Positions 24,715-54,468 of a stretch of 64,000 nucleotides of DNA are shown here, one piece after another (the first letter of the stretch is position 1; each line of letters opens with the position of its first letter). Below the pieces are notes generated by a model. That model was not told where the DNA came from, searched no databases, and worked only from the letters and a program-made list of their open reading frames with translations. The DNA comes from Rhodoferax ferrireducens (lineage in GTDB: Bacteria; Pseudomonadota; Gammaproteobacteria; Burkholderiales; Burkholderiaceae_C). Position numbers and translations under genes: made by a program. The stretch lies in NCBI RefSeq assembly GCF_003347515.1, contig NZ_QEII01000259.1, positions 1 through 64,000 on the forward strand. The letters run 5' to 3'.

Positions 24715-25047
24715 GGGCAGGACGTGAATGCTAAAGGGGCACGTTCCGCAGCATAAAGAATGACGGGGGGCTGTTAAACGCGATTCTGGAATCGAAGGAT
24801 TATGAGCGACGTGCAGCCACCCAGTCCTGGCCTCACCTGAGGCTCGACAACAACTTCTCCCTCGTTCCCCGCAACACTGTCCCTGCGTTTGAATTTATTC
24901 AATAATTTGAACAAAACAAGCCTCTAGCCCTCGTGGCATAAGCGCATGAAGCTATTTAATATATAGCAAATAAATGCGCTGTCCATGAGGGACAGCGATC
25001 CGGTCTGGCGATTCAGGCGCTTTTGAATGTGTCTGCGTGGCATCGCG
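24715..25047. other. Intergenic region with three small palindromes and a repeat copy
   Basis: No gene is seen. It separates the decarboxylase stop from the cytochrome start, both on the minus strand. Perfect short palindromes occur at 24781-24794 (CGATTC-TG-GAATCG), 24830-24843 (GCCTCA-CC-TGAGGC) and 24889-24902 (TTGAAT-TT-ATTCAA). The first two lie 67 and 116 nt from the cytochrome start and may be operators. One copy of the interspersed repeat lies at 24919-24973. Confidence 0.5.
24919..24973 (+). repeat. Interspersed ~50-nt repeat, copy A
   Basis: Reads CCTCTAGCCC, then GCATAAGCGC, then GCTAT-7-ATAGC and AAA. Intergenic, between two minus-strand genes. The terminal GCTAT/ATAGC arms form a five-pair hairpin. 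Confidence 0.85.
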
Positions 25048-26670
25048 TCATTTGACGGCGTTGAGCCGTTTGACACCCGCAACAAAACGCACCAGCGTCG
25101 CCGAGAGTACGCCGCGCGGGATTGTCGCCTCGATCAGCTGGAAACGCCCCCTCGTGACCCTGGCCTTGTCCAGCGCTGCCTTCAGTTCGGTCCGCGTTCC
25201 CACCCGAATGCCATCGCCACCCAGGCCTGCCGCCATCTCGGCAAAGCCCCAATGCCCCAGGTCGGTGAACGTGGACTCCGGCTGGAAGGTGCGCAGCATC
25301 TCCCAGCTGGCGTTGTTGAACACCAGCACGATTGGGTCCCAGCCGTAGCGCTTGCAGTTGCCCAGCTCCCAGCCAGTCATCTGAAATGCGCCGTCACCCA
25401 CCAGAATCAGCGGGCGCTGACCGGTGGCGGCCTGCAGACCCAGGCCGGCCGGCACGCCAAAGCCCATGGTCGCGTAGTAGCCCGGTGCCACCAGCGCCGT
25501 GTGCTCGATCTCCATCGCCGTGAACAGGCAGTCGCCCATGTCCGAGGCAATCGGCATCTTGCCGTGTTCGAGCATCAAGTCATTGACCGCGGTGGCGATG
25601 TCGGTTGGCGTGATCGTTGCCGAATCGGCCACCATGCCATACGCAAAAGCCTGGCGCTTCACGGAAAACACCTTTTCTTCGGTACCAAGACACAGCAGCA
25701 GGCGATCAACCACCGCGGCCAGCGGCAATTGCGAGTAGGTGTGATAACCGATGGAGACCCGGCCATCGAGCGCCTGAATCGTCTTGCGCATGTCGATCTT
25801 GGTTTCGGACACGGCGAAATTGGTGTCGCAAATAATCTCGCCGAGCAGGAACAGCCCATCCGAGCTTTCGACCAGTTGGGTCACTTCCGGAAAACCGGCG
25901 ACACCCATGTAGGTGCCAAGCAGTGGCGCATCCTGGTCGGCCAGCAAACCGCGGCCCATGAAGCTGGTCACCACCGGAATGCCGAGGCGTCGTGACAACA
26001 CCGCGACTTTGTCTTCGAGTCCGTAACGGCGCACTTCGACGCCCGCCATCAATACCGGTGACTTGGCCTGGGCCAGTCGTTGAAGAATCTCATCCACGCA
26101 GGCATTGAGCGCGTCCTGATCAACCGGCAGGGCGAGCTCGGCTAGCACTGGCTGACAGGGCACAGCCACCATATCGCGGGGAATCTCGATGTAGACCGGT
26201 TCGGATTTACGCAGGCAACTGGCCAGTACGCGGGCGATGTCCGCGGGCGCGCGCTCGGCGTCATCGAGTCGCACCTGATCGCAGGTGATTTCCTTGAAGA
26301 TCTGAAACTGCGAATCGAGTGTCTTGGCCTGATGGTGTAGCAGCAGGCCGGAACGCGACTCGCCCTTGCCGGGTCCGCCGGAGAGCACGACCAGCGGGGA
26401 CTTCTCGGCAAAGGCCGCAGCCACCGCGTTGACCATGTTCAGCGCACCGGCGCCGTAGGTCACAGCGGCCACACCGAGACCGCAGTTGATGCGCGCCGAT
26501 GCGTCGGCGGCAAAACCAACACCGGGTTCGTGCGACAGGGTGTAGAGCGGCAGAATCTGCGATTCTTCGATGACGCGGAAATAAGGCAGCGCGAAGTCAC
26601 CGGGGATGCCAAAGATTTGGCGCGCGCCGTGCGCCTTGAGGGCGTGCAGCAAGGATTCAGTGAGATTCAT
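25048..26670 (-). CDS. ipdC: Indolepyruvate/phenylpyruvate decarboxylase (ThDP enzyme)
   Basis: A 540-residue thiamine-diphosphate enzyme that decarboxylates aromatic 2-oxo acids to aldehydes, a step of the Ehrlich pathway and of indole-3-acetate synthesis. ATG at 26668-26670 is chosen because GGAG lies nine bases upstream, whereas the Met seven codons earlier has no such site. The N-terminal domain gives GIPGDFALPYF and the activating Glu48 in LSHEPGVGFAADA. The cofactor motif is GDGAFQMTGWELGN, with NN about 28 residues after GDG. The sequence follows the Azospirillum-type phenylpyruvate decarboxylase rather than the enterobacterial IpdC. No aldehyde dehydrogenase is adjacent. Substrate preference cannot be decided here. 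Confidence 0.85.
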   Translation of the reverse strand: MNLTESLLHALKAHGARQIFGIPGDFALPYFRVIEESQILPLYTLSHEPGVGFAADASARINCGLGVAAVTYGAGALNMVNAVAAAFAEKSPLVVLSGGPGKGESRSGLLLHHQAKTLDSQFQIFKEITCDQVRLDDAERAPADIARVLASCLRKSEPVYIEIPRDMVAVPCQPVLAELALPVDQDALNACVDEILQRLAQAKSPVLMAGVEVRRYGLEDKVAVLSRRLGIPVVTSFMGRGLLADQDAPLLGTYMGVAGFPEVTQLVESSDGLFLLGEIICDTNFAVSETKIDMRKTIQALDGRVSIGYHTYSQLPLAAVVDRLLLCLGTEEKVFSVKRQAFAYGMVADSATITPTDIATAVNDLMLEHGKMPIASDMGDCLFTAMEIEHTALVAPGYYATMGFGVPAGLGLQAATGQRPLILVGDGAFQMTGWELGNCKRYGWDPIVLVFNNASWEMLRTFQPESTFTDLGHWGFAEMAAGLGGDGIRVGTRTELKAALDKARVTRGRFQLIEATIPRGVLSATLVRFVAGVKRLNAVK

Positions 26671-26865
26671 GCGCGGGTGCTCCGGGTTCATGTGATGAAA
26701 AAATTATGGAGCGAACCCGTCGCACGAAGCCGTCGAAATTCAGCCTGTCACGGCCCCGCTGCACACGTTTCGTGCGCTTTCCCGGCGCGGGTGCCGGCAC
26801 ACCCCGAAAACCCTGACCACGCAGCAGACCTCAAGGTCGCGCGATATTCTCTCGGGCGGAGAAGG

Positions 26866-27231
26866 CTAGCCAGCGTTGGCGTCGACCAGGCCAGGTCGCA
26901 GCCCCCGCAACACGGCATGTGCGTTGAGTGAGCGGATCGGGATGCTGACATCGCTGGGGATGCGCTGCTCCACCTGCAAGGTCCGGTAACGTAGGCAGGA
27001 CACGCGCAAGAAACTTGAAAAATTGGGGATATCGCCGCGGTGTTCCAGCAGTTCATCGTAGAGCCTGGAGAGCAGTTGCGGCACCGTCATGCCGTCGCGG
27101 GCGCCGATTTCCTCCAGCGTGTCCCAAAACAGGTTTTCCAGCCGGACACTGGTGACCACGCCGTGCAGGCGGATGCTGCGCGTGGTGGCTTCATAGCTTT
27201 GCGGATTGGCGCGGACAAAAATTTGACACAT
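26866..27231 (-). CDS. Ribbon-helix-helix domain protein
   Basis: A 121-residue protein. The first 75 residues match the RHH_4-type domain: RSIRLHGVVTSVRLENLFWD gives the strand and first helix, and GMTVPQLLSRLYDELLEHRG the second. This class is a predicted DNA-binding protein and is often misannotated as an arylsulfate sulfotransferase. The C-terminal 40 residues (YRTLQVEQRIPSDVSIPI) are of unknown role. The DJ-1 family gene lies upstream on the same strand, separated by a terminator, so it probably has its own promoter in the 62-nt gap. The 195 nt downstream to the decarboxylase start hold nothing I recognise. Confidence 0.82.
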   Translation of the reverse strand: MCQIFVRANPQSYEATTRSIRLHGVVTSVRLENLFWDTLEEIGARDGMTVPQLLSRLYDELLEHRGDIPNFSSFLRVSCLRYRTLQVEQRIPSDVSIPIRSLNAHAVLRGLRPGLVDANAG

Positions 27232-27250
27232 GCCGGTCTCCTTCGCGTAT

Positions 27251-27285
27251 CAAAAAAGTAGCCCCAAAGCATAAGCGCCGGGGCT
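27251..27285 (-). terminator. Rho-independent terminator after the DJ-1 family gene
   Basis: On the minus strand AGCCCC (27285-27280) pairs with GGGGCT (27265-27260), extended inward by two G-U and two G-C pairs, and is followed by ACTTTTTT. It begins 9 nt after the DJ-1 stop. Read on the + strand, the TAGCCCC and GCATAAGCGC words recall the interspersed repeat, so it may be a co-opted copy. Confidence 0.8.
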
Positions 27286-27293
27286 GCTTGTGG

Positions 27294-27875
27294 CTAGTGG
27301 GTAATTTTCGTACCCAGCAAGGCCATGAACTGCGACAGCCAGGCGGGGTGCGCCGGCCAGGCGGGCGCGGTGACGTATTGACCGTCGGTGACGGCGGCGT
27401 CGATGGCAATCTCGGCAAAGATGGCGCCCGCCAGCTCTACCTCCGGCCGGCAGGCCGGGTAGGCGCTGATGCGCTTGCCCCGGATGATGCCGGGCACGGC
27501 GGCCAGCAGTTGGGCGCCGTGGCACACGGCCGCAATCGGCTTGCCGGCGTCGGCAAACTCTTTGGTGATCGCCAGCACACGGGGGTTGAGCCGCAAATAC
27601 TCGGGGCCGCGTCCGCCGGGGATCAGCAGCGCGTCATAGTTGGCGGTGTTGACCTCGGCAAAGCTGAAGTTCAGGCCAAAGTGGTGGCCCGGTTTTTCGC
27701 TGTAGGTCTGCGCCCCTTCGAAGTCGTGAATTGCGGTCATGACGTAGTCGCCGGCTTTCTTGTCCGGACACACCGCGTGCACGGTGTGGCCGACGGCGAG
27801 CAGGGTCTGGAAGGGCACCATGGTTTCGTAGTCTTCACCATAGTCGCCGCACAGCATCAGAATTTTCTTGGCCAT
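27294..27875 (-). CDS. DJ-1/PfpI family protein
   Basis: A 193-residue protein with AAGGAG six bases before the ATG at 27873-27875; the GTG one codon earlier is also in frame but less likely. It has the flavodoxin-like core of the class I glutamine amidotransferase-like superfamily. The nucleophile elbow is [10 protein letters not shown] with Cys118, and the acidic partner lies in GDYGEDYE near the N-terminus. [13 protein letters not shown] marks the preceding turn. Family members act as glyoxalases, deglycases, chaperones or peptidases; this sequence does not settle which. It is followed by a clear terminator, so it is transcribed alone or with the small gene upstream. Confidence 0.9.
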
Positions 27876-27960
27876 CACAGTCTCCTTGAAAGTTGGAGCG
27901 GCCAGTGTGCGGCGTCGGCTCCCCGTATGGGTAACAGCGCATTACTACGGCACTAAGCGT

Positions 27961-28110: not shown

Positions 28111-28289
28111 GGTGTGAGAGCCTGAAGGCCCGTAGTTGGATGAACAGACAAGTTAGTCGCATCCTGTGACAGCTTCGTGTCAGTGCCGAATTACGACGCC
28201 GGCATACGCACGAGTTGCGCTTGCGGTGTTACCGACGGTATGCTTGCCCGCGATGCTTTTAGCCCTGCAACCACCGCCCCAAGGTCGTC

Positions 28290-29303: not shown

Positions 29304-29309
29304 GGTCGC

Positions 29310-32218: not shown

Positions 32219-33145
32219 ATGGCCAGCAGCCTGCTCGCACTGATTGACGACATTGCCACCGTACTGGACGACGTGGCCCTTTTGACCAAAGTGGCCGCCA
32301 AGAAAACCGCCGGTGTACTGGGGGATGATCTGGCCCTGAACGCCCAGCAGGTCGCGGGTGTCAAAGCCGACCGTGAGCTACCGGTGGTCTGGGCGGTGTG
32401 CAAAGGCTCATTCGTCAACAAGGCGATTCTGGTGCCGTCGGCGATTGCCATCAGCGCGCTGGCGCCCTGGGCGGTGACGCCGCTGTTGATGGTGGGTGGC
32501 GCTTATTTGTGCTTTGAGGGTTTCGAAAAACTGGCGCACAAGTTCTTGAGCAACAGCGCCGAGGAGGCGCGTCACCGTGCCCAACTGGTGCAGGCGCTGG
32601 CCAACCCGTCGATCGACCTGGTGGCGCTGGAGAAGGAAAAAATCAAGGGCGCCGTACGAACCGATTTCATCCTGTCGGCCGAGATCATTGCCATCACGCT
32701 GGGCACGGTGCAGAGCAGCCCGCTGGCCACGCAAGTAAGCGTCCTGAGTGGCATCGCCGTGCTAATGACGGTCGGCGTCTATGGCCTGGTGGCGTGCATT
32801 GTCAAGCTGGACGATGGCGGGCTCTACCTCAGTCAACAAGCGGGTGACGATGTCGCGGCTCGGATTCGGCGCCGTGTGGGGCGGGGCATTCTCAGGTTTG
32901 CACCTTACCTCATGAAGGGCTTGTCTATTGCCGGAACCGCGGCCATGTTTCTGGTTGGGGGAGGCATCTTGACGCATGGTATTCCCGCGGTGCATCATGC
33001 GATTGAGCAATGGAGCTCGGGCGTGGGCACAGCCCTGCAATCGCTTGTTCCCTTGCTGCTGGATGCGGTCGCCGGCATTTTGGCCGGCGCGGCGGTATTG
33101 GCCTGCGTGGCAGTGGTGAAACGGGTGAGGCAAGGTTTTTCTTGA
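32219..33145 (+). CDS. yedI: DUF808 (YedI-type) inner-membrane protein
   Basis: A 308-residue membrane protein. ATG 32219 gives the family N-terminus MASSLLALIDDIATVLDDVA and KVAAKKTAGVLGDDLALNAQQ. Helices are visible at about 75-95, 165-215, 245-265 and 285-300. The conserved central block is GAYLCFEGFEKLAHKF. A DFILSAEIIAITLG motif follows. The family is widespread and uncharacterised. It is separated by 159 nt from the divergent FabH-like gene. A repeat copy follows its stop. Confidence 0.92.
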   Translation: MASSLLALIDDIATVLDDVALLTKVAAKKTAGVLGDDLALNAQQVAGVKADRELPVVWAVCKGSFVNKAILVPSAIAISALAPWAVTPLLMVGGAYLCFEGFEKLAHKFLSNSAEEARHRAQLVQALANPSIDLVALEKEKIKGAVRTDFILSAEIIAITLGTVQSSPLATQVSVLSGIAVLMTVGVYGLVACIVKLDDGGLYLSQQAGDDVAARIRRRVGRGILRFAPYLMKGLSIAGTAAMFLVGGGILTHGIPAVHHAIEQWSSGVGTALQSLVPLLLDAVAGILAGAAVLACVAVVKRVRQGFS

Positions 33146-33151
33146 TTATTC

Positions 33152-33204
33152 TGGCCACTAGCCCATATGGAATAAGCGCTTTAAGCTATTGAATATATAG
33201 CAAA
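33152..33204 (+). repeat. Interspersed ~50-nt repeat, copy B
   Basis: Reads GGCCACTAGCCC, then TGGAATAAGCGC, then GCTAT-7-ATAGC and AAA. It begins 7 nt after the yedI stop, ahead of the HD-GYP gene. The hairpin arms are identical to copy A while loop and flanks differ. Confidence 0.85.
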
Positions 33205-33287
33205 TTGAATGTACTGACGGAAGTGGATTGTTCTTGTTTCACAGCATCACATGAACGCCCTGAGACCCGATTGGAGGCGGATTGATT

Positions 33288-37130: not shown

Positions 37131-37142
37131 ATTCACATTTTT

Positions 37143-37205
37143 GTCATTGCGAGCGCAGCGCGGCAATCCAGGGGACTTGGATTGCCGCGCTGCGCTCGCA
37201 ATGAC
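37143..37205. repeat. 63-nt perfect inverted repeat (MITE/REP-like)
   Basis: Two exactly complementary 28-nt arms (37143-37170 and 37178-37205) flank a seven-base loop, GGGGACT. Each arm starts GTCATTGCGAGCGCAGCGCG at its outer end. It begins 12 nt after the dusC stop. Elements with GTCATTGCGAGCGCAG termini recur in many proteobacterial genomes as noncoding repeats. It could act as a bidirectional terminator, though no T-run follows. Confidence 0.92.
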
Positions 37206-37299
37206 GAACTTATAGTCATGTCCTTATGCTTCGAATCGGGCGACTCCAATAGCTGCTCTCAGCGTTACAGTATTTTTATTTTTGATCGAGGAAACTTCC

Positions 37300-38423: not shown

Positions 38424-38477
38424 TTGGCCTCTATCGCTCTAGGAATAAGCGCTAATAGCTATCAAATAAGTAGCTAA
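38424..38477 (+). repeat. Interspersed ~50-nt repeat, copy C (abuts frmB start)
   Basis: Reads TTGGCCTCTATCG, GGAATAAGCGC, AGCTATC and TAGCTAA. It fills almost the whole frmA-frmB gap, and its last base directly precedes the frmB ATG. The 3' arms are GCTA and TAGC. It takes the place where a Shine-Dalgarno would be expected. Confidence 0.82.
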
Positions 38478-39353
38478 ATGAACACTGCTTCCCTTGAAAT
38501 TCTGAGCGAGCATGCCTGCTTTGGCGGTGTGCAGCGCTTTTACCAGCACGCCTCCGTCGAGATCGGGCTGCCGATGCGCTTCTCGGTTTACCTGCCACCG
38601 CGGGCGGCGATCGACCGGGCTGGCGGTAAAGTGCCGGCCCTGCTGTATCTGGCCGGGCTGACCTGCAATGAAGAAACCTTCATGGCCAAGGCCGGGGCGC
38701 AACGCATGGCGGCCGAGCTCGGCCTGGCGCTGATTGCCCCCGACACCAGCCCGCGCGGCGCCGGTGTACCCGGCGAGACCGAGAGTTGGGACTTTGGTGT
38801 CGGCGCCGGTTTTTATCTGGATGCGACGCAAGCGCCCTGGTCACAGCACTACCGCATGGAGAGTTACATCGTCTTGGAGCTGGTGCCGCTGCTGGCGAAA
38901 ACCTTACCCGTTGACGTAGAGCGGCTGGGCATTTTGGGTCATTCCATGGGCGGCCATGGCACCTTGACGCTGGCGCTCAGGCATCCCCGCCTGTTCAAGT
39001 CAGTGTCCGCGTTTGCGCCGATCTGTGCGCCCACCCAATGTCCGTGGGGGCACAAGGCGTTCTCGGGTTACCTGGGCGCCGACACGGCGCAGTGGGCGAT
39101 CCACGATGCCAGCGCACTGATGGGCAAATGCGCCAACGCGCCGTACCCGGCCGGCATCCTGATCGACCAGGGACTGGCCGACAAGTTCTTGCCCACGCAA
39201 CTGAATCCGCAGCTGTTTGAAGCCGCCTGCGCCCAGGCAGGGCAGCCATTGACGCTGCGCCGCCATGCCGGTTACGACCACGGGTATTACTTCATCTCGA
39301 CCTTCATGGCCGACCATCTGGCGCATCACGCGCAAACGCTGCTGGCCGGTTGA
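38478..39353 (+). CDS. frmB: S-formylglutathione hydrolase
   Basis: A 291-residue esterase that hydrolyses S-formylglutathione to formate and glutathione. Ser156 lies in LGILGHSMGGHGTL, and the acid and His lie in the DQGLADKF and YDHGYYFI segments. YLAGLTCNEETFMAKAGAQ and PDTSPRGAGVPGE are family marks. Paired with frmA 59 nt upstream. No ribosome-binding site is visible ahead of the ATG, because the repeat copy occupies the place; translation may depend on coupling or on a leaderless-like mode. Confidence 0.96.
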   Translation: MNTASLEILSEHACFGGVQRFYQHASVEIGLPMRFSVYLPPRAAIDRAGGKVPALLYLAGLTCNEETFMAKAGAQRMAAELGLALIAPDTSPRGAGVPGETESWDFGVGAGFYLDATQAPWSQHYRMESYIVLELVPLLAKTLPVDVERLGILGHSMGGHGTLTLALRHPRLFKSVSAFAPICAPTQCPWGHKAFSGYLGADTAQWAIHDASALMGKCANAPYPAGILIDQGLADKFLPTQLNPQLFEAACAQAGQPLTLRRHAGYDHGYYFISTFMADHLAHHAQTLLAG

Positions 39354-39891: not shown

Positions 39892-42798
39892 TTACCGGTA
39901 ATCGCTGACCGGCACGCAGGAGCACTGCAGATTGCGGTCACCGTACACGTTGTCCACGCGGCCCACCGGCGGCCAGTACTTGACCTGTTTCAGCGTCGCC
40001 AGCGGGAAGCCGCCGACTTCGCGCGAGTAGGGTCTGTCCCACTCGGTCCCCATCAAGGAAGCGGCGGTATGCGGTGCGTGCTTGAGCGGGTTGTTGTCCT
40101 GCGGCCATTCACCGCGTTCGACTTTGGCAATTTCCTCGCGGATGGCGATCATGGCGTTGATGAAACGGTCCAGCTCGTCCAGTGTTTCGCTCTCGGTCGG
40201 TTCCACCATCAGCGTGCCGGGCACCGGAAAACTCAACGTCGGCGCATGAAAACCGTAGTCCATCAGGCGCTTGGCCACATCTTCGGCCGAAATGCCGTTG
40301 GCGCCGCCACTGCTTTCCTTCAAGGGCCGCAAGTCCAGAATGCACTCGTGCGCCACATGGCCGTTGGCGCTGGCGTAGAGGGTGGGGTAGTGGTCTTTCA
40401 GGCGAGCGCTGATGTAGTTGGCGCTCAGGATGGCGACCTCGGTCGCCGCCTGCAGGCCCTCGGCGCCCATCATGCGGCAGTACATCCAGCTGATCGGCAG
40501 CACGGCCGCATTGCCCAAGGGCGCGGCCGAGATGGCGCCCACGCCATTGACCGGAAGTCCCCCCGTGGCGTGGCCCGGCAGGTAAGGCACCAGGTCAGCC
40601 ACCACACAGACGGGGCCGACACCGGGGCCGCCACCGCCGTGCGGAATGCAGAAAGTCTTGTGCAGGTTCAGGTGGCTGACGTCGCCGCCGAATTCGCCGG
40701 GGGCGGCCACGCCGACCAGCGCATTCATGTTGGCGCCGTCCACATAGACGCGGCCACCGTGGGAATGCACCAGGGCGCACAGCTCCTTGACGCTGGTCTC
40801 AAATACGCCGTGCGTGCTGGGGTAGGTGATCATCACCGCCGCCAGATGCTGGCTGTGCTGTTCGCACTTGGCCTGCAGGTCGGCGATGTCGACATTGCCT
40901 TGCGCGTCGCAGGCCGTGACCACCACGGTCAGGCCCGCCATGTGGGCGCTGGCCGGGTTGGTGCCGTGGGCGCTGGAGGGAATCAGGCAGATATTGCGGT
41001 GGCCCTGGCCATTCGCTTCATGGTAGGCCTTGATCACCAGCAGTCCGGCATATTCGCCTTGCGAACCGGCGTTGGGCTGCAGGCTGATGCCGGCATAACC
41101 CGTCGCCTGGCACAGCCAGGCGCGCAATTGCTCGTCCAGCTCGCGGTAGCCTTGCAACTGCTCGTGCGGCGCAAACGGGTGCAGGGATGCAAACTCCGGC
41201 CAGGTGATGGGGATCATCTCGCTGGTGGCATTGAGCTTCATAGTGCAGCTGCCCAGCGGGATCATGCTGCGGTCCAGCGCCAGGTCCTTGTCGCTCAGGC
41301 GCCGGATGTAGCGCAGCATGCCGGTCTCGGAGTGGTGCGTGTTGAAGACTGGGTGCGTCAAAAAGGGGCTGGCGCGGCGCAAGGCGGTGGGGATCAGGGA
41401 CTCCACGCCCATCTCGAAATCGCTGACCTGCGGCAGCGTTTGCCCGTCCTTGGCGAAAAAGCCCCAGAGTTGCTCCAGGTTGTCGCGGGTGGTGGTCTCG
41501 TCCAGCGATACGCTCAGGCTGGTTTTTGAGGTAAATCGGAGGTTAGCCCCCGTAGAACGTGCGCGAGTAGCTATTGAATCTGTAGCATCTTCGGTGTTGA
41601 CGGTCAGGGTGTCAAACGCACTGGCGTTGCCGAGGGCGTAACCCATGTCCTGCAGACCGCGCGCCAGGATCGCGGTGTAGGTCGCGACGCGCTGGGCAAT
41701 GCGTTTGAGGCCTTGCGGGCCGTGGTAGACCGCATACATGCTGGCCACCACCGCGGGCAAGACCTGCGCGGTGCAGATGTTGGAAGTCGCTTTTTCCCGG
41801 CGAATGTGTTGTTCGCGCGTTTGCAGCGCCAGCCGGTAAGTGGGCTGGCCGTGCACGTCGATGCTCACGCCCACCAGACGGCCGGGCATGGAGCGCTTGA
41901 ATTCGTCACGGCACGCCAGGTAGGCCGCGTGCGGGCCGCCGTTGCACATCGGCATGCCAAAGCGCTGCGTGGTGCCGACCACGATGTCGGCATTCCATTC
42001 ACCGGGAGGGGCCAGCAAGGTCAGCGCCAGCAAATCGGCGGCCACGATGAAGGCCGCCTGTTTGGCGTGCACCGTGGCCACGTCGGGGCGCATGTCTTCA
42101 ATCGAGCCGCTGCTGGACGGGTACTGAATCAGCACCGCAAAGTAGTCGCGATTCGCCAGCCAGCCATTCCACTGCTCGGCTGACTGCGCGACCAGCACCT
42201 CAATGCCCAGTGGCGCCGCGCGCGTCTGAATGACTTCAATCGTTTGCGGATGGCAGTCGCCGGCCACGATAAAAGTGTTGCTTTTGCTCTTGACGCTGCG
42301 TTTGGCCAGCGTCATGGCTTCGGCCGCTGCCGTGGCTTCGTCCAGCATGGAGGCGTTGGCCATCGGCATGCCGGTGAGGTCCGCGATCATGGTCTGGAAA
42401 TTCACCAGCGCTTCCATGCGGCCCTGACTGATCTCGGCCTGGTAGGGCGTGTAGGCGGTGTACCAGGCGGGATTTTCCAGAATGTTGCGCAGAATCACGC
42501 CCGGCGTGTGGGTGTCGTAATAACCCTGGCCGATATAGCTTTTGAAAACCTGATTTTTGGATGCAATCGCCTTGAGCTCAGCCAGTGCCGCTGCCTCGGT
42601 GATCGCCGCCGGAATATCCATGCGGCTGTGGCGGGCGATAGAGCGGGGCACGATACCGTCGATCAGCTCGCGGCGTGAACTCGATCCCACGACCTTGAGC
42701 ATCAAGGCCTCGTCGGTCTCGTCCACGCCAATGTGGCGGGCGACGAATTCGCTGGCGTTCTCCAGCTCGTCCAGGGGTTTGGCGGATTGCATCAACAT
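39892..42798 (-). CDS. gcvP: Glycine dehydrogenase (decarboxylating), P protein
   Basis: A 968-residue PLP enzyme that decarboxylates glycine and passes the aminomethyl group to the lipoyl arm of GcvH. The N-terminus reads [19 protein letters not shown]. The cofactor Lys is in [18 protein letters not shown] near residue 714. It is the single-chain form with both halves. A repeat copy lies within the frame, encoding the stretch between VNTEDA and ANLRF, with no obvious loss of length against the family. It lies downstream of gcvT and gcvH, and a terminator stands in the 87-nt gap after gcvH. Confidence 0.97.
41541..41588 (+). repeat. Interspersed repeat, copy G, inside gcvP (antisense to the gene)
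   Basis: On the + strand reads GTTAGCCCCCGTAGAAC, GCGCGAG and AGCTATTGAATCTGTAGCA; arms GCTA and TAGC. Read in the gcvP frame it gives a polar stretch, [17 protein letters not shown], at a variable position of the protein. Flanking family motifs are intact on both sides. Confidence 0.7.
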
Positions 42799-42833
42799 AA
42801 TTTTTTCCAGCTAGAGGGGAGGATGGGGACGGC

Positions 42834-42879
42834 AATTTTTCGACGGGCCGCCCCTAGAAAAATTAGCCCCCTCGGGGGC
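42834..42879. terminator. Terminator in the gcvH-gcvP gap
   Basis: On the minus strand, six nt after the gcvH stop, GCCCCC-GA-GGGGGC (42879-42866) is followed by TAATTTTTC. This is a good intrinsic terminator. A second nested inverted repeat, AATTTTTC (42834-42841) and GAAAAATT (42857-42864), surrounds a GC-rich core. It should reduce readthrough from gcvTH into gcvP or require a separate gcvP promoter. Confidence 0.8.
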
Positions 42880-43299: not shown

Positions 43300-44457
43300 T
43301 TAACCGCGGTAGTAGCGGGTGGGCACAAAAGGCATGGCCACCACTTCCATCGGCACCGGTTTGCCGCGCACGATGGCGTTGATCCGGGTGCCCAGTGTCG
43401 CCAATTCAGGTGTCACATAACCCATGGCCACCGGCTGGTTGATCGTGGGCCCAAGCAGGCCGCTGGTGACTTCGCCGATGCGCTGGCCGGACAGGTCTTG
43501 CAGCTCGGTATGATCGCGCACGGGAATCCGCTCCAGCGCCACCAGTCCAACACGTTTTCGGGCTATAGCCCCCGTATCACCTGCGAGTTTCGCTAGTATT
43601 TTCGTAGCACCAGGATAACCGCCGGCACGCGCGCCGTCGGCCCGCCGCACTTTCTGCAGGGCCCAGTTCAGGCCGGCTTCAACCGGTGTGGTGGTTGTGT
43701 CAATGTCGTTGCCGTACAGACACAGGCCGGACTCCAGGCGCAGCGAATTGCGGGCACCCAAGCCGACTGGTTTGACTTCGGGCTGTGCCAGCAAGGCCTT
43801 TGCCAGTATTTCGGCCTGCGATGCCTCCACCGAAATCTCGAATCCATCTTCACCGGTATAGCCGCTGCGGGTGATAAAACACGGCACGGCATGTCCGTCG
43901 CAAGCCACATCAAATTGCCCGCCGGTCATGAACACCAGTTTCTCGATGCCGGGACACAGGCGCTGCAGTGCCGTCACGGCTTGCGGACCCTGCAATGCCA
44001 GCAAGGCTTTCTCGGGCATGGGGATGACCTGGCAGCGCGCACCGATTTTGGCCTGGATGTGCGCAATATCACCGACCTTGCAGGCGCCGTTGACGATCAC
44101 AAAAATGTCGCCGCCGTGGGCATAGTCGCGGTTCACGAACATCAGGTCGTCGATGATGCCGCCGTCCTCATTGAGCAGCAGGCCGTAGCGCTGCTTGCCG
44201 ACGGCCAGGTCGATCACGTCCACCGGCATCAGGCTCTCAAACGCGGCCGCCGCATCGGGCCCGACCAGGCGCAACTGGCCCATGTGCGACACGTCAAACA
44301 GGCCGGCGGCCGTGCGCGTGTGCTGGTGCTCGGCCATCAGGCCAGCGGGGTATTGCACCGGCATGGAATAGCCGGCAAACGGCACCATGCGGGCGCCCAG
44401 CGACACATGCAGATCGTTGAGCGGTACTTTGAGAAGGTTGTCGGGCGTGATGGACAT
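43300..44457 (-). CDS. gcvT: Aminomethyltransferase (glycine cleavage T protein)
   Basis: A 385-residue enzyme that transfers the methylene group from GcvH to tetrahydrofolate. ATG at 44455-44457 has GGAG about nine bases upstream; the in-frame Met at 44505 would add 16 residues not seen in the family. LFDVSHMGQLRLVGPDA, YTGEDGFEI and LGARNSLRLESGLCLYGNDI are diagnostic, with the catalytic Asp in the VSHMGQ region's fold. A repeat copy is embedded in the segment GATKILAKLAGDTGAIARK. It is the first gene of the operon, and a tandem glycine riboswitch lies immediately upstream. Confidence 0.97.
   Translation of the reverse strand: MSITPDNLLKVPLNDLHVSLGARMVPFAGYSMPVQYPAGLMAEHQHTRTAAGLFDVSHMGQLRLVGPDAAAAFESLMPVDVIDLAVGKQRYGLLLNEDGGIIDDLMFVNRDYAHGGDIFVIVNGACKVGDIAHIQAKIGARCQVIPMPEKALLALQGPQAVTALQRLCPGIEKLVFMTGGQFDVACDGHAVPCFITRSGYTGEDGFEISVEASQAEILAKALLAQPEVKPVGLGARNSLRLESGLCLYGNDIDTTTTPVEAGLNWALQKVRRADGARAGGYPGATKILAKLAGDTGAIARKRVGLVALERIPVRDHTELQDLSGQRIGEVTSGLLGPTINQPVAMGYVTPELATLGTRINAIVRGKPVPMEVVAMPFVPTRYYRG
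43558..43612 (+). repeat. Interspersed repeat, copy H, inside gcvT (antisense to the gene)
   Basis: On the + strand reads GGGCTATAGCCCCCGTATCAC, split here as GGGCTATAGCCC and CCGTATCAC, then CTGCGAG and GCTAGTATTTTCGTAGC. Arms GCTA and TAGC. In the gcvT frame it encodes ATKILAKLAGDTGAIAR, at a position that is variable in the family. Confidence 0.62.
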
Positions 44458-44544
44458 CAGCGAACTCCAGAGAGAGAAAAGGGTAAAGCGCAGGAGGCAA
44501 GTCAAATTCCATGAGCTTGAGCGACGTCAAAATCATGGCTTGCC

Positions 44545-44790
44545 CCCGCTGTCCGCTTTACCTGAGAGATTCGCCGGGTCTGCGTGGCCTTGCTGGCTGC
44601 AGACTGCGGTTTGCTCCTTCGGTGGGTCAAAGCGGTTGTAAATGCCGGCTTGACCTCTCTCCAGTGGGGATACGTTGGGTGGTCTTGCGACCGGCCAACG
44701 TTTGTCAGTCCTTTTGCCTGAGCGTTCAAACTGCTGCAATCAGCAGTCCTGCGCCTTCGGCGGCCTCCTCAAGGGGAGGCTCTCTCCTGA
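44545..44790 (-). promoter_or_regulatory. Tandem glycine riboswitch upstream of gcvT
   Basis: Two glycine aptamers stand in tandem on the minus strand. The first (about 44788-44700) has GGAGAGAGCC, GCCGAAGGCGCAG and GCTCAGGCAAAAGGAC. The second (about 44664-44548) has GGAGAGAGG, CACCGAAGGAGCAA and CTCTCAGGTAAAGCGGACAG. These are the conserved cores of the family. Glycine binding typically switches on gcv expression. About 90 nt separate the second aptamer from the gcvT start, room for an expression platform. Confidence 0.95.
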
Positions 44791-44851
44791 ACAAATCAAT
44801 TCTACTATTTCACGCCAAGCCCATCGCGCAGGCCCCGGCGTCCGTCCGGAA

Positions 44852-47479: not shown

Positions 47480-47485
47480 GCGGGC

Positions 47486-48385
47486 ATGCTGACGGGAATC
47501 CTGGCCGGACTGGCCGCCGGCGCCCTGTGGGGACTGGTCTTTGTGGTGCCGCGCATGACACCCGGTCTGTCGTCGGTGGACCTGACCGCCGGCCGTTTTG
47601 TCAGCTACGGCGGCATGGCTGTGCTGGTGATGCTGTTCAGCTGGCGATCACACCGCTTGCCCACTGCCCGCCAAGCGCTGACGGCCCTGGGGCTGAGCCT
47701 GCTGGGCGCGACCGGCTACTACCTGCTGCTGGCCTTGGCGATTCAAAACGCCGGCACCGAGGTGCCCACGCTCATCATTGGCACCATTCCCATCTGGGTG
47801 ACCTTGCTGGGCAAGCCCATGGGCCTGAAATGGTCAGCGCTGTTGCCCGGGCTGGTGCTGACCAGTGCTGGTCTGCTGCTCATGATGAACGCCATGGAAT
47901 CGAAGCTGTTGGCGGTTGAAACCGGGGGTGCTCACTTCTGGTGGGGTGTGGCACTCGCGACGGCTGCCATGGTGTGCTGGACGGCATTCGCCATCCTCAA
48001 TGCGGCCTGGCTCAAGCGCCACCCCGAGGTGAGCGCCACCGAATGGTCGAACTGGATCGGCATTGCGACGGGCCTGGGCGCCGTAGCCCTCTGGCTGGTC
48101 GCGGGTTCGGAGTCAAAACAGCTTCTAGCCCTCGATAACATTGCGCTTCTAGCTATCATTTGTATAGTAACTGGCGTTGGCTCGGCGTGGGCCGCCAGCA
48201 TTTTATGGAACATCGCCAGCCAACGCCTGAGCGGCAGCCTGTGTGGCCAGCTGATTGTGAGTGAGACCTTGTTTGCCTTGCTGTACTCCTTCGTGTGGGA
48301 CCAGGCCTGGCCCGGTGCGCTCCAGCTGCTCGCCGCCGGGCTGTTCACGCTGGGCATTCTGGCGTCCATCCGGGCGCATCGCTGA
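47486..48385 (+). CDS. EamA/DMT-family transporter
   Basis: A 299-residue ten-helix permease of the drug/metabolite transporter superfamily. GILAGLAAGALWGLVFVVPRM is the first helix of the first EamA repeat, and LATAAMVCWTAFAILNAAWL starts the second. The conserved late block SAWAASILWNIASQRLSGSL and LIVSETLFALLYSFVWD is typical. A repeat copy lies in frame and encodes the eighth helix region (LLALDNIALLAIICIVTG). Its stop overlaps the ubiC start (TGATG). Substrate unknown, probably efflux of a small metabolite. Confidence 0.9.
   Translation: MLTGILAGLAAGALWGLVFVVPRMTPGLSSVDLTAGRFVSYGGMAVLVMLFSWRSHRLPTARQALTALGLSLLGATGYYLLLALAIQNAGTEVPTLIIGTIPIWVTLLGKPMGLKWSALLPGLVLTSAGLLLMMNAMESKLLAVETGGAHFWWGVALATAAMVCWTAFAILNAAWLKRHPEVSATEWSNWIGIATGLGAVALWLVAGSESKQLLALDNIALLAIICIVTGVGSAWAASILWNIASQRLSGSLCGQLIVSETLFALLYSFVWDQAWPGALQLLAAGLFTLGILASIRAHR
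48116..48170 (+). repeat. Interspersed repeat, copy F, inside the EamA gene (sense)
   Basis: Reads CAGCTTCTAGCCCTCGAT, ACATTGCGC, TTCTAGCTATCATTTGTATAG. Arms CTAT and ATAG. In frame it encodes a hydrophobic stretch that works as a membrane helix. Confidence 0.8.
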
Positions 48386-49391: not shown

Positions 49392-49410
49392 CGGTACCGG
49401 CGTTGCGCCC

Positions 49411-50403: not shown

Positions 50404-51167
50404 GCGATGTCTCCGGTTTGGTATGTTTTAAATAGATCCAGGCGTGCAGGTTGGCGCGAGCTTAAGGGGTGGCTCAGTTCGTCCTGGCGGACCTGACTCA
50501 GCAGTTCGAAAAACACCGGGCTTGAGACCGCCGTGGCCACCGGTGCCAGCGCCTGCACCAGCGCCTGCGTGTGACGGCGCAGGGCGTCGCGGTCCAGGCC
50601 CTGCAGCATCAGGACAAAGTCGCGCGTCGGGCGTTCGGACGTGCTGGTGGGCAGGGCGGCCGTGGTGTGGTTGGCAATCGGAAAATCTTCCAAGACTTCG
50701 GCCGTTCCCCAGTGGCCGCAGAGGATGGCCGCCTGATGTACCAGGCGCGCGATCCGGGCGTCGGCCTGGGTCGCAAAACGGGTCGCGTCGCCGCGCAAGT
50801 GCACGGTGGCCAACTGGCTGGCCGTGGACTGGCCGCAGGCGCCGGACAGGGTGCAGGGCAGGCGCACGAACTCGCGCAGCTCCGGGCGCATGCGCGCCGA
50901 CCAGGGCGTGGGATGGGCCACCACTTCACGGTACTGCGCCGTGTTCAGGGCCTGCAGAGAACTCAGCCAGTAGCAGGTGAAGTAGCGCGGCGGTTGCCCG
51001 GCCGGGTCCGCGTGCGTGCGGTAGCGCCGCGCTTCGATGAAGCCCGGCAGGCCCACGCGCTCAGGCACATGCTCGACGCTGTGCCAAGTCTCGTACTCCG
51101 GCTGCAGCGGCGCACTGCTGATGCTGTTCCACAAGACCAGAAAGGCCTGGGCGGTGGGGCGTGTCAT
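50400..51167 (-). CDS. EthD-like / dimeric alpha-beta barrel protein
   Basis: A 255-residue protein. The first half, FLVLWNSISSAPLQPEYETW then HSVEHVPERVGLPGFIEARRY, resembles EthD-type ferredoxin-like barrels in which the E-x-x-x-H-x-x-H-V-P-E motif is typical. The second half (RDFVLMLQGLDRDALRRHTQ, SSPVFFELLSQV) looks like a second copy of the fold. It overlaps both neighbours by four bases. Its role may be isomerisation or decarboxylation of the alcohol dehydrogenase product; inference only. Confidence 0.7.
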   Translation of the reverse strand: MTRPTAQAFLVLWNSISSAPLQPEYETWHSVEHVPERVGLPGFIEARRYRTHADPAGQPPRYFTCYWLSSLQALNTAQYREVVAHPTPWSARMRPELREFVRLPCTLSGACGQSTASQLATVHLRGDATRFATQADARIARLVHQAAILCGHWGTAEVLEDFPIANHTTAALPTSTSERPTRDFVLMLQGLDRDALRRHTQALVQALAPVATAVSSPVFFELLSQVRQDELSHPLSSRQPARLDLFKTYQTGDIA

Positions 51168-52216
51168 GGGGTAGTTTCAGGTTCGGCTTGCACCATGACC
51201 TTGGTCGCCACCTTGCTGCGCGCCAGCGCGAAGCCTTCGTAGGCTCGGGCCAGCGGCACCCGGTGCGTGATCATGTGGCGCAGGGTTTCCTGATGGCTGC
51301 GCATGAATTCCACCACCTCCGGCCAGGCGCGCTCCGGGGCGCGGTAGGAGCCGCGGATCTGCTGGTGCTGGCGCACCAACGCGGTCAGGTCAATGGCCAC
51401 CGGTGCGGCATGGATGCCGGTGATCACCAGAATGCCGTGTGTCTTGAGGGCGCGCAGCGCCGGCTCGATGACGGCGGCCGCGCCCGTGGCCTCGATCACC
51501 ACATCGAACTTGCCGCTCTGCAGATAGGGTGCCAGGCCGGCTTCCATGCCGGTGGCGGCGAAGTCAATCAGCTCCTTGAAACCCATCTTGCGCAACACCT
51601 CGAAGCGCGCCGCGTCGCCATGGCCCGCCACCACCACCTGGCGCGCACCGGCGGCGCGGGCGAAGATGGCAATGCCCTGGCCGATGTTGCCGGGGCCCAG
51701 CACCAGCACGCGGTCACCCTGCTGCACGTTGCCGGTGCGCACCGCCTCGTGGCTCACGGTCAGGGGTTCGGTCAGGGCCGCCACCTCGGCGTCCACACCG
51801 GCGGGAATGGGCACGCAGTTGCGCGCCGGCACCAGCACCCAGGGTGCAAAGCCGCCGTCGCGCGTCACGCCAATGCCGCGCCGCGTGACGCAGGCATCGG
51901 CTTGTCCGGCCCGGCAGGCCTCGCACTGGCCGCAGACCACCGAGGGCCGCACGGCGACCAGCTGCTGCACGGTCAGCCCGGCCACGCCCTCGCCCAGCGC
52001 GGCGATCTCGCCGCTGAACTCGTGGCCGACGGTGACCGGCAGCGCGGCCGTGACAAAGTGGTAGCTGGCGGTCCATTCGTCGATGTGCAGGTCGGTGCCG
52101 CAGACGCCGGTGGATTTGACCTTTAGCAGCACCTCGCCCGGGCCGGGGGCACAGGGAGTGGCGACGTCCTGGAGGTCGAGGCCGCGGCCGGGGTGGAGCT
52201 TGCGAAGAGATTGCAT
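51164..52216 (-). CDS. Zinc-dependent alcohol dehydrogenase (MDR)
   Basis: A 350-residue medium-chain dehydrogenase. The ATG at 52214-52216 gives the family length; longer frames run through the divergent promoter and the LysR gene. Zinc ligands: GVCGTDLHIDEW, GHEFSGE, and the four-Cys structural site CGQCEACRAGQADAC. The NAD site is VLVLGPGNIGQGIAIFARAA. Closest to threonine/sorbitol dehydrogenases rather than ethanol dehydrogenases. First gene of a three-gene set with four-base overlaps, divergent from a LysR regulator that probably controls it. Confidence 0.9.
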   Translation of the reverse strand: MQSLRKLHPGRGLDLQDVATPCAPGPGEVLLKVKSTGVCGTDLHIDEWTASYHFVTAALPVTVGHEFSGEIAALGEGVAGLTVQQLVAVRPSVVCGQCEACRAGQADACVTRRGIGVTRDGGFAPWVLVPARNCVPIPAGVDAEVAALTEPLTVSHEAVRTGNVQQGDRVLVLGPGNIGQGIAIFARAAGARQVVVAGHGDAARFEVLRKMGFKELIDFAATGMEAGLAPYLQSGKFDVVIEATGAAAVIEPALRALKTHGILVITGIHAAPVAIDLTALVRQHQQIRGSYRAPERAWPEVVEFMRSHQETLRHMITHRVPLARAYEGFALARSKVATKVMVQAEPETTP

Positions 52217-52297
52217 GGTGGGCGCATCGGGGTGAGTGGAGCCTGCAGTGTCGGCGCCCGAGACGCATACGTCAAAGACTGTATTGGTATCTAAAAT

Positions 52298-52312
52298 ATA
52301 TTTATAAAATAT
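52298..52312. promoter_or_regulatory. Candidate LysR operator (T-N11-A palindrome)
   Basis: ATATTT-ATA-AAATAT is a perfect 15-bp inverted repeat and contains a T-N11-A arrangement, the classical LysR half-site rule. It lies 28 nt before the lysR start and 82 nt from the divergent dehydrogenase start, in an AT-rich patch within high-GC sequence. Confidence 0.6.
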
Positions 52313-52339
52313 GGCAGATGGCTTGAACAAGGACTGTCC

Positions 52340-53308
52340 ATGGAACTGCGGCATTTGCGATATTTCGTTGGCGTGGCCGAGTTCGGCAGCGTCAGCCGGG
52401 CGGCCGAAAAATTGTTCATCGCGCAACCGGCGCTGTCGGCCCAGATCCGCCAGCTCGAAGAAGAGGTGGGCGCCAGCCTGTTCGTGCGCCTGCCGCGTGG
52501 CGTGCGGCTGACGCAGGCCGGTGAGTCCTTCCTGGAAGACGCCCGCGCGATCCTGGCGCGCGCCCAGCAGGCCACGGTGCGTGCGCGTGAGCGCCAATCC
52601 GGCCAGCGTGCCACCTTGCGCCTGGGGCTGGTGCCGTCCACCACGCACTCGGTGTTGCCGGGTTTGCTCCAGCGCCTGCGGGACTCCGGCCTGAGCGCCC
52701 GTATTGAAGCGCGCGAGATGATCACCTCGCGCCAGCTGCAGGCTTTGCGCAATGACGAGATTGATCTGGGCTTCGCGCGCCCGGGCGAGGGCAGCACACC
52801 GGCGGAAACCGTCGCCGCCATTGACGACCCCTACTGCCTGGCCCTGCCGGCGGGCAACCCGCTGGCTGCGGCCAAGGGGCCGCTGGCGCTGAAGCTGGCC
52901 GCGCACGAACACTTTGTGAGTTTTTCGCGCTACCAGGAGGCCGACTACTTTGACCGCACCGCCGCGCTGTGCCAGGAAGCTGGTTTCACGCCCGACATTC
53001 GCCATGAAGCCGGCCAGTTTGTGAACGTGCTGGCCCTGGTCGCCTGTGGTCTCGGGGTGGCCATCGTGCCGGCCTCGTTTGCCACCCTGCCATTTGGCCC
53101 GGTGGTGTTCCGGCGACTCGGCGCGTCGCGCTTCAAGAGCCAGCTGGTCATCCTGCGCGCCCAGCGGCAGGTGCCGGACGACTGGTCCTTGCAGGTCAGC
53201 AGCCTGGCGGTGGCCGAACTCACGGGTCTGGCGGATCGGCTGGCGGCGGGACTCGATGGCAGCGAAGCCGGTGTTTTTGGCCAGTTTAATGGTGTTTTAG
53301 GCCTCTAG
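52340..53308 (+). CDS. LysR-family transcriptional regulator
   Basis: A 322-residue regulator with AGGA six bases before the ATG. The winged HTH is MELRHLRYFVGVAEFGSVS, RAAEKLFIAQPALSAQIRQL, EEEVGASLFVRLPRGVRLTQ. The effector domain follows from residue 90 (TLRLGLVPSTTHSVLPGLLQ). It faces the dehydrogenase operon across 123 nt. The last codons and the stop lie inside a repeat copy, so the repeat defines its C-terminus. Inducer unknown. Confidence 0.95.
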   Translation: MELRHLRYFVGVAEFGSVSRAAEKLFIAQPALSAQIRQLEEEVGASLFVRLPRGVRLTQAGESFLEDARAILARAQQATVRARERQSGQRATLRLGLVPSTTHSVLPGLLQRLRDSGLSARIEAREMITSRQLQALRNDEIDLGFARPGEGSTPAETVAAIDDPYCLALPAGNPLAAAKGPLALKLAAHEHFVSFSRYQEADYFDRTAALCQEAGFTPDIRHEAGQFVNVLALVACGLGVAIVPASFATLPFGPVVFRRLGASRFKSQLVILRAQRQVPDDWSLQVSSLAVAELTGLADRLAAGLDGSEAGVFGQFNGVLGL

Positions 53309-53353
53309 CCCTTATGGAATGAGCGTAAGTAGCTATTAAGGTAATAGCGAAAA
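53298..53353 (+). repeat. Interspersed repeat, copy D (supplies the LysR stop codon)
   Basis: Reads TTAGGCCTCTAGCCCTTAT, GGAATGAGCG, then GCTATT-5-AATAGC, GAAAA. The LysR stop TAG is the TAG of CTCTAGCCC. Six-pair hairpin arms. Confidence 0.85.
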
Positions 53354-53383
53354 TGTTGTCCGTTTCAGGTATCTCCCTCCGAT

Positions 53384-53956
53384 TCACTTCGGCTTCGGCA
53401 CCCGCCCCATCAGATAGAACTCGGGATTCGGCAGCATGTTGCTGAACGAGGCCATGCGGTTGGACAGGCCAAAGAAGGCCGTGATGGCGGCGATATCCCA
53501 GGCGTCTTCGTCATTGAAGCCGTGGACCTGCAGGGCGGCAAAGTCGGCGTCTTCGATCTCGTCGGATTTCAGGCAGACCTTCATCGCAAAATCCAGCATG
53601 GCACGCTGGCGCGGCGTGATGTCGGCCTTGCGGTAGTTCACCGCTACCTGGTCGGCCACCAGGGGTTTTTTCTCGTAGATGCGCAGGATCGCGCCGTGCG
53701 CCACCACGCAATACAGGCACTTGTTGGCGGCGCTGGTGGTGGTGACGATCATCTCGCGGTCACCTTTGGTGAGGCCCGAGTCTTCCTTGAGCATCAGGGC
53801 GTCGTGGTAGGCAAAAAAGGCGCGCCACTCGGCCGGTCGGCGCGCCAGCGCCAGAAACACGTTGGGCACGAAGCCGGCCTTCTCTTGCACCTCCAGCACT
53901 TTGGCGCGGATGTCTTCGGGCAGGTCCTTCAGTTCCGGGGCAGGGTAGCGGGTCAT
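53384..53956 (-). CDS. AhpD-like peroxidase-related protein
   Basis: A 190-residue protein of the carboxymuconolactone decarboxylase/AhpD superfamily. The redox motif is CLYCVVAHGA with Cys80, Cys83 and His87, preceded by LTKGDREMIVTTTSAANK. It matches the group annotated as peroxidase-related enzymes. GGAG lies before the ATG. The C-terminal DAWDIAAITAFFGLSNRMA helix is conserved in the group. It faces the gamma-carboxymuconolactone decarboxylase-like gene across 77 nt. Confidence 0.9.
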   Translation of the reverse strand: MTRYPAPELKDLPEDIRAKVLEVQEKAGFVPNVFLALARRPAEWRAFFAYHDALMLKEDSGLTKGDREMIVTTTSAANKCLYCVVAHGAILRIYEKKPLVADQVAVNYRKADITPRQRAMLDFAMKVCLKSDEIEDADFAALQVHGFNDEDAWDIAAITAFFGLSNRMASFSNMLPNPEFYLMGRVPKPK

Positions 53957-54033
53957 GGTGTCTCCTGGTTGAATGGGATGTTGGCGTTATTCTGTGCCAA
54001 TTTCGTCATTCATATTCTCAGGAGAAACAAGAC

Positions 54034-54405
54034 ATGGATTCCCAATTCGACAAGGGCCTGGCCACCCGCAAGCAGGTGATGGGCGAGGATTTTGTGGCCA
54101 AGGCCCTGGGCCATGCCACCGAGTTCACGCGGCCGATGCAGCAGTACATCACCCGCAATGCCTGGGGCGACGTGTGGCAGCGTGAGGGGCTGGATCTGAA
54201 AACCCGCAGCCTGATCACCGTGGCCATGCTCACCGCCTTGGGCAAACAGCACGAGCTCAAGGGCCATGTGCGCGGGGCACTGAACAACGGCGCCACCGTG
54301 GCCGAGATTCAGGAGGTGCTGCTGCACGCCAGCATTTACTGCGGCGTGCCGGCGGCGGTGGAGGCGTTTCGTGCGGCGGCGGAAATCGTGGATGGGCAGG
54401 GCTAA
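54034..54405 (+). CDS. 4-carboxymuconolactone decarboxylase-like protein
   Basis: A 123-residue protein. The family motif is VWQREGLDLKTRSLITVAML, then ELKGHVRGALNNGATVAEIQ, then HASIYCGVPAAVEAFRAAAE. In PcaC this fold decarboxylates 4-carboxymuconolactone in the beta-ketoadipate pathway, but no other pathway genes are here, so the true substrate is open. A strong AGGAG precedes the ATG. A repeat copy follows the stop by 9 nt. Confidence 0.9.
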   Translation: MDSQFDKGLATRKQVMGEDFVAKALGHATEFTRPMQQYITRNAWGDVWQREGLDLKTRSLITVAMLTALGKQHELKGHVRGALNNGATVAEIQEVLLHASIYCGVPAAVEAFRAAAEIVDGQG

Positions 54406-54413
54406 GCCCGAAA

Positions 54414-54468
54414 TTGGCCTCCAGCCCGCGTGAAATATTCGCAGGTAGCTATCTAAAAGATAGTGCTA
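54414..54468 (+). repeat. Interspersed repeat, copy E (overlaps response regulator stop)
   Basis: Reads TTGGCCTCCAGCCC, GAAATATTCGC, GTAGCTATC-5-GATAG, TGCTA. Arms CTATC and GATAG, a compensated change against other copies. The last three bases are the complement of the stop codon of the minus-strand receiver gene. Confidence 0.8.

Follow-up and report, generated by a model that had tools for sequence, protein, structure and literature searches.

A repeat of about 55 bp in Rhodoferax ferrireducens and related Comamonadaceae: a candidate maintained DNA signal, possibly of the uptake-sequence type

Eight copies of an interspersed repeat of about 55 bp are present in a stretch of 64,000 nucleotides of Rhodoferax ferrireducens (assembly GCF_003347515.1, contig NZ_QEII01000259.1, positions 1 to 64,000), and this whole stretch is called the window in the following. 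The DNA uptake sequences (DUS) of the Neisseriaceae and the uptake signal sequences (USS) of the Pasteurellaceae occur in hundreds of copies on both strands, in coding as well as in intergenic regions, they are in place at orthologous sites, and they have dialects and have been lost in individual lineages. The repeat shares with them the copy number, the spread over both strands and over coding and intergenic regions, the in-place state at several orthologous coding sites, the dialects, and the lineage losses. It differs from them in its length, about 55 bp compared to 9–12 bp, in its mostly intergenic location, and in one discrete intergenic fill. Repetitive extragenic palindromes (REP) and bacterial interspersed mosaic elements (BIME), which are linked to the REP-associated tyrosine transposase (RAYT), are short, hairpin-forming, and mostly extragenic, like the repeat. 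However, the repeat is found also inside genes, no consensus copies were found next to a RAYT gene in the one neighbourhood examined, and RAYT-like genes are present irrespective of the motif.

The Rickettsia palindromic elements (RPE) are insertions of about 150 bp in open frame into many unrelated genes (PMC10969869). The repeat is also a short palindromic sequence in open frame inside unrelated genes, but it has only about 55 bp, and its best-studied coding copies are in place. The BRE elements are dispersed in Bordetella and Comamonadaceae, are usually intergenic, and are not aligned with the replication fork (PMC3110155), and the repeat is similar in its dispersal in Comamonadaceae, its usually intergenic location, and its lack of fork alignment. 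The BRE elements have 75–91 bp and a GC content of 69% and are often found in tandem, and they are set apart from the repeat by this description only (PMC3110155). For Acidovorax ebreus TPSY a potential novel motif, GCTTAT(N)5AAGCG, was reported in 2017; 107 of its 114 copies are intergenic, and they are often found between convergent genes and near gene ends (PMC5217627). This motif is contained in the Acidovorax consensus of the repeat, GCGCTTaTccaacAAGCGC. It is, however, a 16-nt part that was described for one genome, and the second half, the coding copies, the range within the family, and gain and loss are not part of that description. The same table lists ATAGCT(N)22CAAAAG for Polaromonas naphthalenivorans (PMC5217627), and its identity with the 55-bp repeat could not be shown. 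No description of the whole repeat was found in the literature on Comamonadaceae repeats, RAYT, RPE, Burkholderiales palindromes, and uptake sequences, which included few subscription papers.

The results presented below suggest that the repeat is a DNA signal that is upheld by a trans-acting process, most likely one of the uptake-sequence type, and this reading is tentatively favoured. A sequence-only model was built from the eight window copies and was used to search the genome (6.87 Mb, 324 contigs). The best 150 of 1076 first-look candidates were scored, and thereby at least 150 matches were obtained, including the eight copies themselves, all with E < 5e-7; the scores of the window copies are inflated because the model was built from them. 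A hidden Markov model (HMM) detected 210 copies in 1.65 Mb, which comprised the window and 80 stretches around matches and, being picked around copies, do not reflect the genome-wide density. Together with 41 matches elsewhere, the genome contains at least 251 copies. Using a model from 199 copies, 24 hits of at least 40 bits were found in 1129 genes (1.28 Mb), compared to a maximum of 8.5 bits in codon-shuffled genes, and a chance origin of the repeat family is excluded. The non-randomness of the family upholds the view of the initial annotation that an explanation by function or by propagation is needed.

The family is also present in related genera. The model of the own dialect (R1), which misses other dialects, had matches with E up to 1e-5 in 45 of 59 congeners (own genome excluded) and in 17 of 59 genomes from elsewhere in the family. 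When named genomes were scanned with a pattern, at least 80 loci were found in the seven genera Rhodoferax, Acidovorax, Diaphorobacter, Polaromonas, Giesbergeria, Simplicispira, and Curvibacter and in metagenome-assembled genomes. Five of the 80 loci listed belong to Acidovorax temperans DSM 7270, and two of the metagenome-assembled genomes are titled only Gammaproteobacteria (one) and Pseudomonadota (one). Read on the plus strand, the own dialect is composed of AAATnGGCCTCTAGCCC, 4–8 variable bases, an A/T-rich core with GCGCA, AGCTATTAA, 5–6 variable bases, and TAGCAAA. The dialect of Acidovorax and Giesbergeria, CTAGCGCTT...AAGCGCTAG, forms a perfect 5' stem; in Rhodoferax and in the own genome this part reads CTAGCcC...tGCGCaAG, with C-C and A-A mismatches in the stem, and the own dialect would accordingly be that of Rhodoferax. 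When one Acidovorax copy was used as a probe, which has a low sensitivity, three of 72,556 plasmid records, all from Comamonadaceae, and none of 50,697 phage records were found.

All eight copies that had been listed in the initial annotation were found in register and on the plus strand of the window. They and two of the genes concerned are:

Copy A: 24919..24971, plus strand, intergenic, 3' of the minus-strand gene 25048–26691
Copy B: 33152..33205, plus strand, intergenic, 7 nt past the stop of the plus-strand gene 32219–33145
Copy C: 38424..38478, plus strand, occupies the 59-nt gap between the genes 37300–38418 (plus) and 38478–39353 (plus)
Copy D: 41537..41590, plus strand, inside gcvP (39892–42798, minus strand), encodes 18 residues of GcvP
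Copy E: 43559..43612, plus strand, inside gcvT (43300–44457, minus strand), encodes GATKILAKLAGDTGAIAR
Copy F: 48118..48172, plus strand, inside the transporter gene 47486–48385 (plus), encodes KQLLALDNIALLAIICIV
Copy G: 53298..53352, plus strand, intergenic, between the genes 51164–53005 (minus) and 53384–53956 (minus)
Copy H: 54414..54467, plus strand, between the convergent genes 54034–54405 (plus) and 54466–54831 (minus)
gcvP: 39892..42798, minus strand, host gene of copy D, TIGR00461
gcvT: 43300..44457, minus strand, host gene of copy E, TIGR00528 and NF010093

The location of the copies D, E, and F inside genes was absent from the initial annotation. Copy E is the weakest of the eight (24.5 bits with the core model), and the host gene of copy F has a weak match to TIGR00950. 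The motif of copy B is also present in the relative G091. No copy was found in positions 1–24900 of the window, although the density in the stretches rich in copies would predict about three; this part holds a predicted gene of 8.7 kb (8051–16744).

The gene context was determined for 196 of the 210 copies (14 were without), and 61 of them are inside predicted genes and 135 are between genes, numbers that are approximate because the genes were called with an own codon-score script. The 48 coding copies that are more than 150 nt away from both gene ends use only few open frames, and peptides such as NKALAPVxxAQxAIxxIA and NAIxSIATxAxSTGARGQ recur. The host proteins include GcvP, GcvT, the CCA-adding enzyme, MutL, RlmD, MoeA, a heptosyltransferase, and TruB. 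At the site of copy D no length difference was found in 26 of 28 relatives, and two had six additional nucleotides. At the site of copy E the length was equal in 26 of 29 relatives, and three were 3–6 nt shorter, and at the site of copy F there was no net length difference in all six relatives. A comparison with homologues in the Protein Data Bank (PDB) revealed no motif-length insertion at the sites in GcvP and MutL (copy L114:10861-10912), and the TruB copy differs from its homologue by four residues. It was considered that the copy in the CCA-adding enzyme might be an insertion of 18 residues relative to PDB 1vfg, and this was rejected because congeners have the same loop length without the motif, i.e., the motif-poor genomes G117 and G065. 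The length of this loop varies among motif-rich genomes, and it is 12 residues shorter in five poor ones. The gcvP, gcvT, transporter, MutL, and CCA sites are consistent with an in-place origin by substitution, and the site of copy C is not. These alignments indicate that coding copies can arise and vanish by substitution, with the length unchanged.

Congeners that are rich in the motif were compared with congeners that are poor. Genomes with at least 12 matches were called rich, a limit that was set after the counts had been seen, and the counts comprised up to 94 matches listed per genome. The motif was present at the exact position of copy D in 14 of 28 relatives (19–36 bits), and at that of copy E in eight of 29 (E up to 0.004), with two more that were weaker. 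With the own genome included, the gcvP site was occupied in 15 of 15 rich genomes and in none of the 14 poor genomes (G073 is without this stretch), and the site in the gene for the CCA-adding enzyme was occupied in 13 of 15 rich and in one of 15 poor genomes. In a protein tree of 40 genomes, from which the motif codons had been removed, rich and poor lineages interleave within the genus. Seven changes between the two states were counted, at least five of them on well supported branches, compared to a mean of 13.6 after shuffling. The independent rich/poor pairs at gcvP agree in four of four cases, which are too few to reach p < 0.05. In rich genomes the synonymous-codon identity at the motif was 0.64 (gcvP), 0.70 (gcvT), and 0.70 (CCA), versus 0.63, 0.61, and 0.61 elsewhere in the genes, and 33 of 309 windows of gcvT and 27 of 373 of CCA were as high as the motif. 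In poor genomes the respective values were 0.45, 0.40, and 0.46 versus about 0.60 elsewhere, and 893 of 916, 305 of 305, and 359 of 373 windows were as high as the motif or higher. The low values in poor genomes can be read as an erosion that set in when a trans-acting upkeep was lost. A motif that was present in the ancestor and was then lost several times fits the range across the family, and it seems less likely that each rich lineage gained it separately at these codons. A trans-acting factor would keep the copies near the consensus in rich lineages, and several lineages would have lost this upkeep, after which their copies eroded.

The process behind this could be a natural transformation that prefers certain sequences, as is the case with DUS of the Neisseriaceae and USS of the Pasteurellaceae. 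Cells would preferentially import motif-bearing DNA, and its recombination would spread and refresh motif alleles in place. The in-place state, the fixed sites, the dialects, and the joint loss are marks of uptake sequences, and the copies are dispersed, with 105 on the plus and 105 on the minus strand, both in genes and between them. Transformation has been described in the family: it depends on type IV pili in Verminephrobacter eiseniae, Acidovorax temperans and A. facilis are transformable, and there was no transformation between Acidovorax species (PMC4212676). Competition suggested a sequence preference, and the transformation with species preference that is described for the family is not linked to a known sequence (PMC4212676). 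A bolder proposal, which is rather doubtful, would be that the repeat is a self-recognition signal for transformation across the Comamonadaceae, with genus dialects. It would replace codons of essential genes in place and fill the junctions between stop and start codons, and it would disappear and erode whenever a lineage loses the receptor. It would be the longest known uptake sequence and the first known outside the Neisseriaceae and Pasteurellaceae.

Several observations weigh against an uptake signal. With 55 bp the motif is far longer than DUS and USS, and the limit between rich and poor genomes was chosen as described above. In rich genomes the conservation of the motif codons of gcvP does not exceed that of the remaining windows (389 of 916 are as high). 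The copy in an acyl-CoA dehydrogenase encodes 13 residues that are absent from 5idu, and the copy in MoeA encodes 26 residues that are absent from a 40%-identical homologue, so that both are possible insertions. In a filtered list of intergenic copies 26 of 35 are in gaps of at most 90 nt, and an excess of copies on the leading strand of the own genome (see below) is left unexplained. ComEC (PF03772), which the own genome has, was found in 56 of 60 genomes, poor ones included, and it is absent from the rich and nominally complete genome G106 and from the rich genome G082. It was therefore rejected as the gene that separates rich from poor, and since ComEC does not decide the question, the uptake reading is kept at a tentative level, with mobility as its main rival.

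The strongest point for mobility, and a further one against an uptake signal, is the site of copy C. The motif is present between the stop and the start codon in the own genome, G091, G115, G082, G069, G114, and G063. The spacer has 58–59 nt in the five genomes with both gene ends fully aligned, and it is similar in G115 and G082. In G095 the spacer is longer, and part of it resembles the motif. In G106, G101, G099, and G065 there is no spacer and stop and start overlap; G106 is a motif-rich genome. In these alignments copy C is a discrete gain or loss of 57–66 nt (about 58 nt). A mobile palindromic element similar to RPE or REP, moved by an enzyme encoded elsewhere into intergenic sites and in open frame into genes, is possible but somewhat unlikely. 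It would account for this clean fill in seven genomes with no gap in four, for the many gaps of motif size, and for the few frames and recurring peptides of the interior coding copies. The motif contains two hairpins, and the 5' one is perfect over 9 bp in Acidovorax, as would suit such an element. Against it, the copies in gcvP, gcvT, the transporter gene, and MutL show no indel, one site is retained throughout the rich congeners and has been lost from the poor ones, and no target duplication could be defined. RAYT was rejected as the mover, because Y1_Tnp was found in 53 of 60 congeners, rich and poor alike, irrespective of the motif number. The own genome has two Y1_Tnp genes, and at L132, the one neighbourhood that was examined, only diverged copy-like stretches and no consensus copies were found. 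L132 (G000:C236:84157-84486) is located immediately upstream of a long gene and encodes a Y1 transposase similar to RAYT with a length of 234 aa, and it looks domesticated, because similar single hits were found in most of the 60 genomes of the genus.

The hairpins were analyzed for covariation with 210 copies of the own genome and 68 of other genomes. The initial annotation had claimed that the arms of the 3' hairpin co-vary and had proposed a comparison with shuffled copies. In this comparison the pairing turned out to be no better than in shuffled copies, the six pairs being equal to column shuffles (z −1.8 to 1.7). Pairing in the own copies was 0.83 compared to 0.16–0.56 when one side was slid, and it reflects conservation rather than compensation, because it equals the column shuffles pair by pair; the stem itself is conserved, and where its pairs vary, the two sides do so independently of each other. 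Of the nine pairs of the 5' hairpin one was above shuffles, in other genera only (z 3.0), and in the Acidovorax group one pair had a z of 3.1 and another of 2.3. Mutual information in the 210 copies did not make any hairpin pair stand out. The compensatory base changes of a structured RNA are thus missing from the 3' hairpin, and a lack of covariation would be expected of decaying copies of a mobile master.

It is improbable that the repeat is a site that is spread over the chromosome, is maintained by selection, and is bound by a chromosome-organising protein or another DNA-binding protein. Such a site would be consistent with fixed positions maintained by a trans factor, with the rarity on plasmids and phages (one probe), and with some strand coherence in the own genome, where adjacent copies share the strand in 69 of 103 pairs compared to a shuffled mean of 51 (p 0.0006). 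However, the complete set was lost several times in a single genus, which is hard to reconcile with an essential site, and three relatives are without a consistent strand or replichore pattern.

The initial annotation had favoured a motif for segregation or recombination that has a conserved hairpin and is oriented by replication. The one-way orientation on which this was based holds for the window, with eight of eight copies on the plus strand, but not for the genome, where the strands are even for the 210 HMM copies and also for the best 150 matches of the first model (74 plus, 76 minus). The leading strand was assigned per contig from counts of GGGNAGGG, with which the GC skew agrees in 17 of 17 contigs; GGGNAGGG itself was distributed 32:2 on contig C324, and contig C226 with four copies was excluded as ambiguous. 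In the own genome 132 of 206 copies (64%, 132:74) are on the leading strand, and the number is 124 of 198 (contig-bootstrap interval 0.57–0.68) when the window contig is left out. No such excess was found in three single-contig relatives. In the complete genome G069 of the same genus, for which the skew indicates an origin near 0 and a terminus near 2.35 Mb, 70 of 150 matches are leading and 80 lagging (47% leading), with 40 plus and 41 minus on one side and 39 plus and 30 minus on the other side of 2.5 Mb. With the origin assumed at coordinate 1, the ratio was 35:40 in G057 (75 matches listed of 125) and 39:36 in G013 (75 listed of 136). Since these three genomes are even, the repeat cannot be strictly tied to replication, and a weak tie is limited to the own genome. 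The strong leading-strand bias of KOPS- or Chi-type motifs is missing, covariation is missing as well, and a replication-oriented motif is very improbable.

The position relative to genes is not random. The intergenic copies are found in 82 tandem, 44 convergent, and nine divergent gaps, compared to 70.8, 20.9, and 43.3 expected from intergenic lengths; they are flanked by 170 gene 3' ends at a median distance of 13 nt, and promoter regions are avoided. Gene strand was ruled out as the cause of copy orientation, which is random to the genes: 39 copies in tandem pairs have the same strand as the genes and 43 the opposite strand, and for intragenic copies the numbers are 30 and 31. An RNA-level element, i.e., a terminator, an attenuator, or a small RNA, would explain the closeness to stops and the twofold excess in convergent gaps, but with this random orientation, no covariation, and no Rfam match at the gathering threshold at any copy of the window, there is hardly any room for it.

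The Rfam scan yielded three riboswitch matches elsewhere in the window, including tandem glycine riboswitch aptamers upstream of gcvT (44539–44799, minus) and a Mn2+ (yybP-ykoY) riboswitch (61292–61464, plus). A near-perfect inverted repeat of 31 bp with a 7-nt loop (TTTGTCATTGCGAGCGCAGCGCGGCAATCCA) is located between two genes at 37140–37208. A second interspersed repeat, which is unrelated to the 55-bp motif, is found between gcvP and gcvH (42822–42878). A single copy is contained in the 1.65 Mb from the own genome, but it is present in many places in congeners with 86–100% identity, motif-poor genomes included.

About 50 hits of at least 25 bits are found within the 1129 own genes, which has consequences for the annotation of proteins and for evolutionary rates in the family, whether the repeat is an uptake signal or mobile. 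If it is a mobile palindrome, there would be a second lineage beside Rickettsia in which peptides are written into conserved enzymes, for instance GcvP, MutL, TruB, and the CCA-adding enzyme. In the case of an uptake signal, sequence-controlled gene exchange would become open to study in a large environmental family, with a natural experiment in the form of repeated gain or loss within one genus. A self-recognition signal, if true, would also explain the failed transformation between Acidovorax species.

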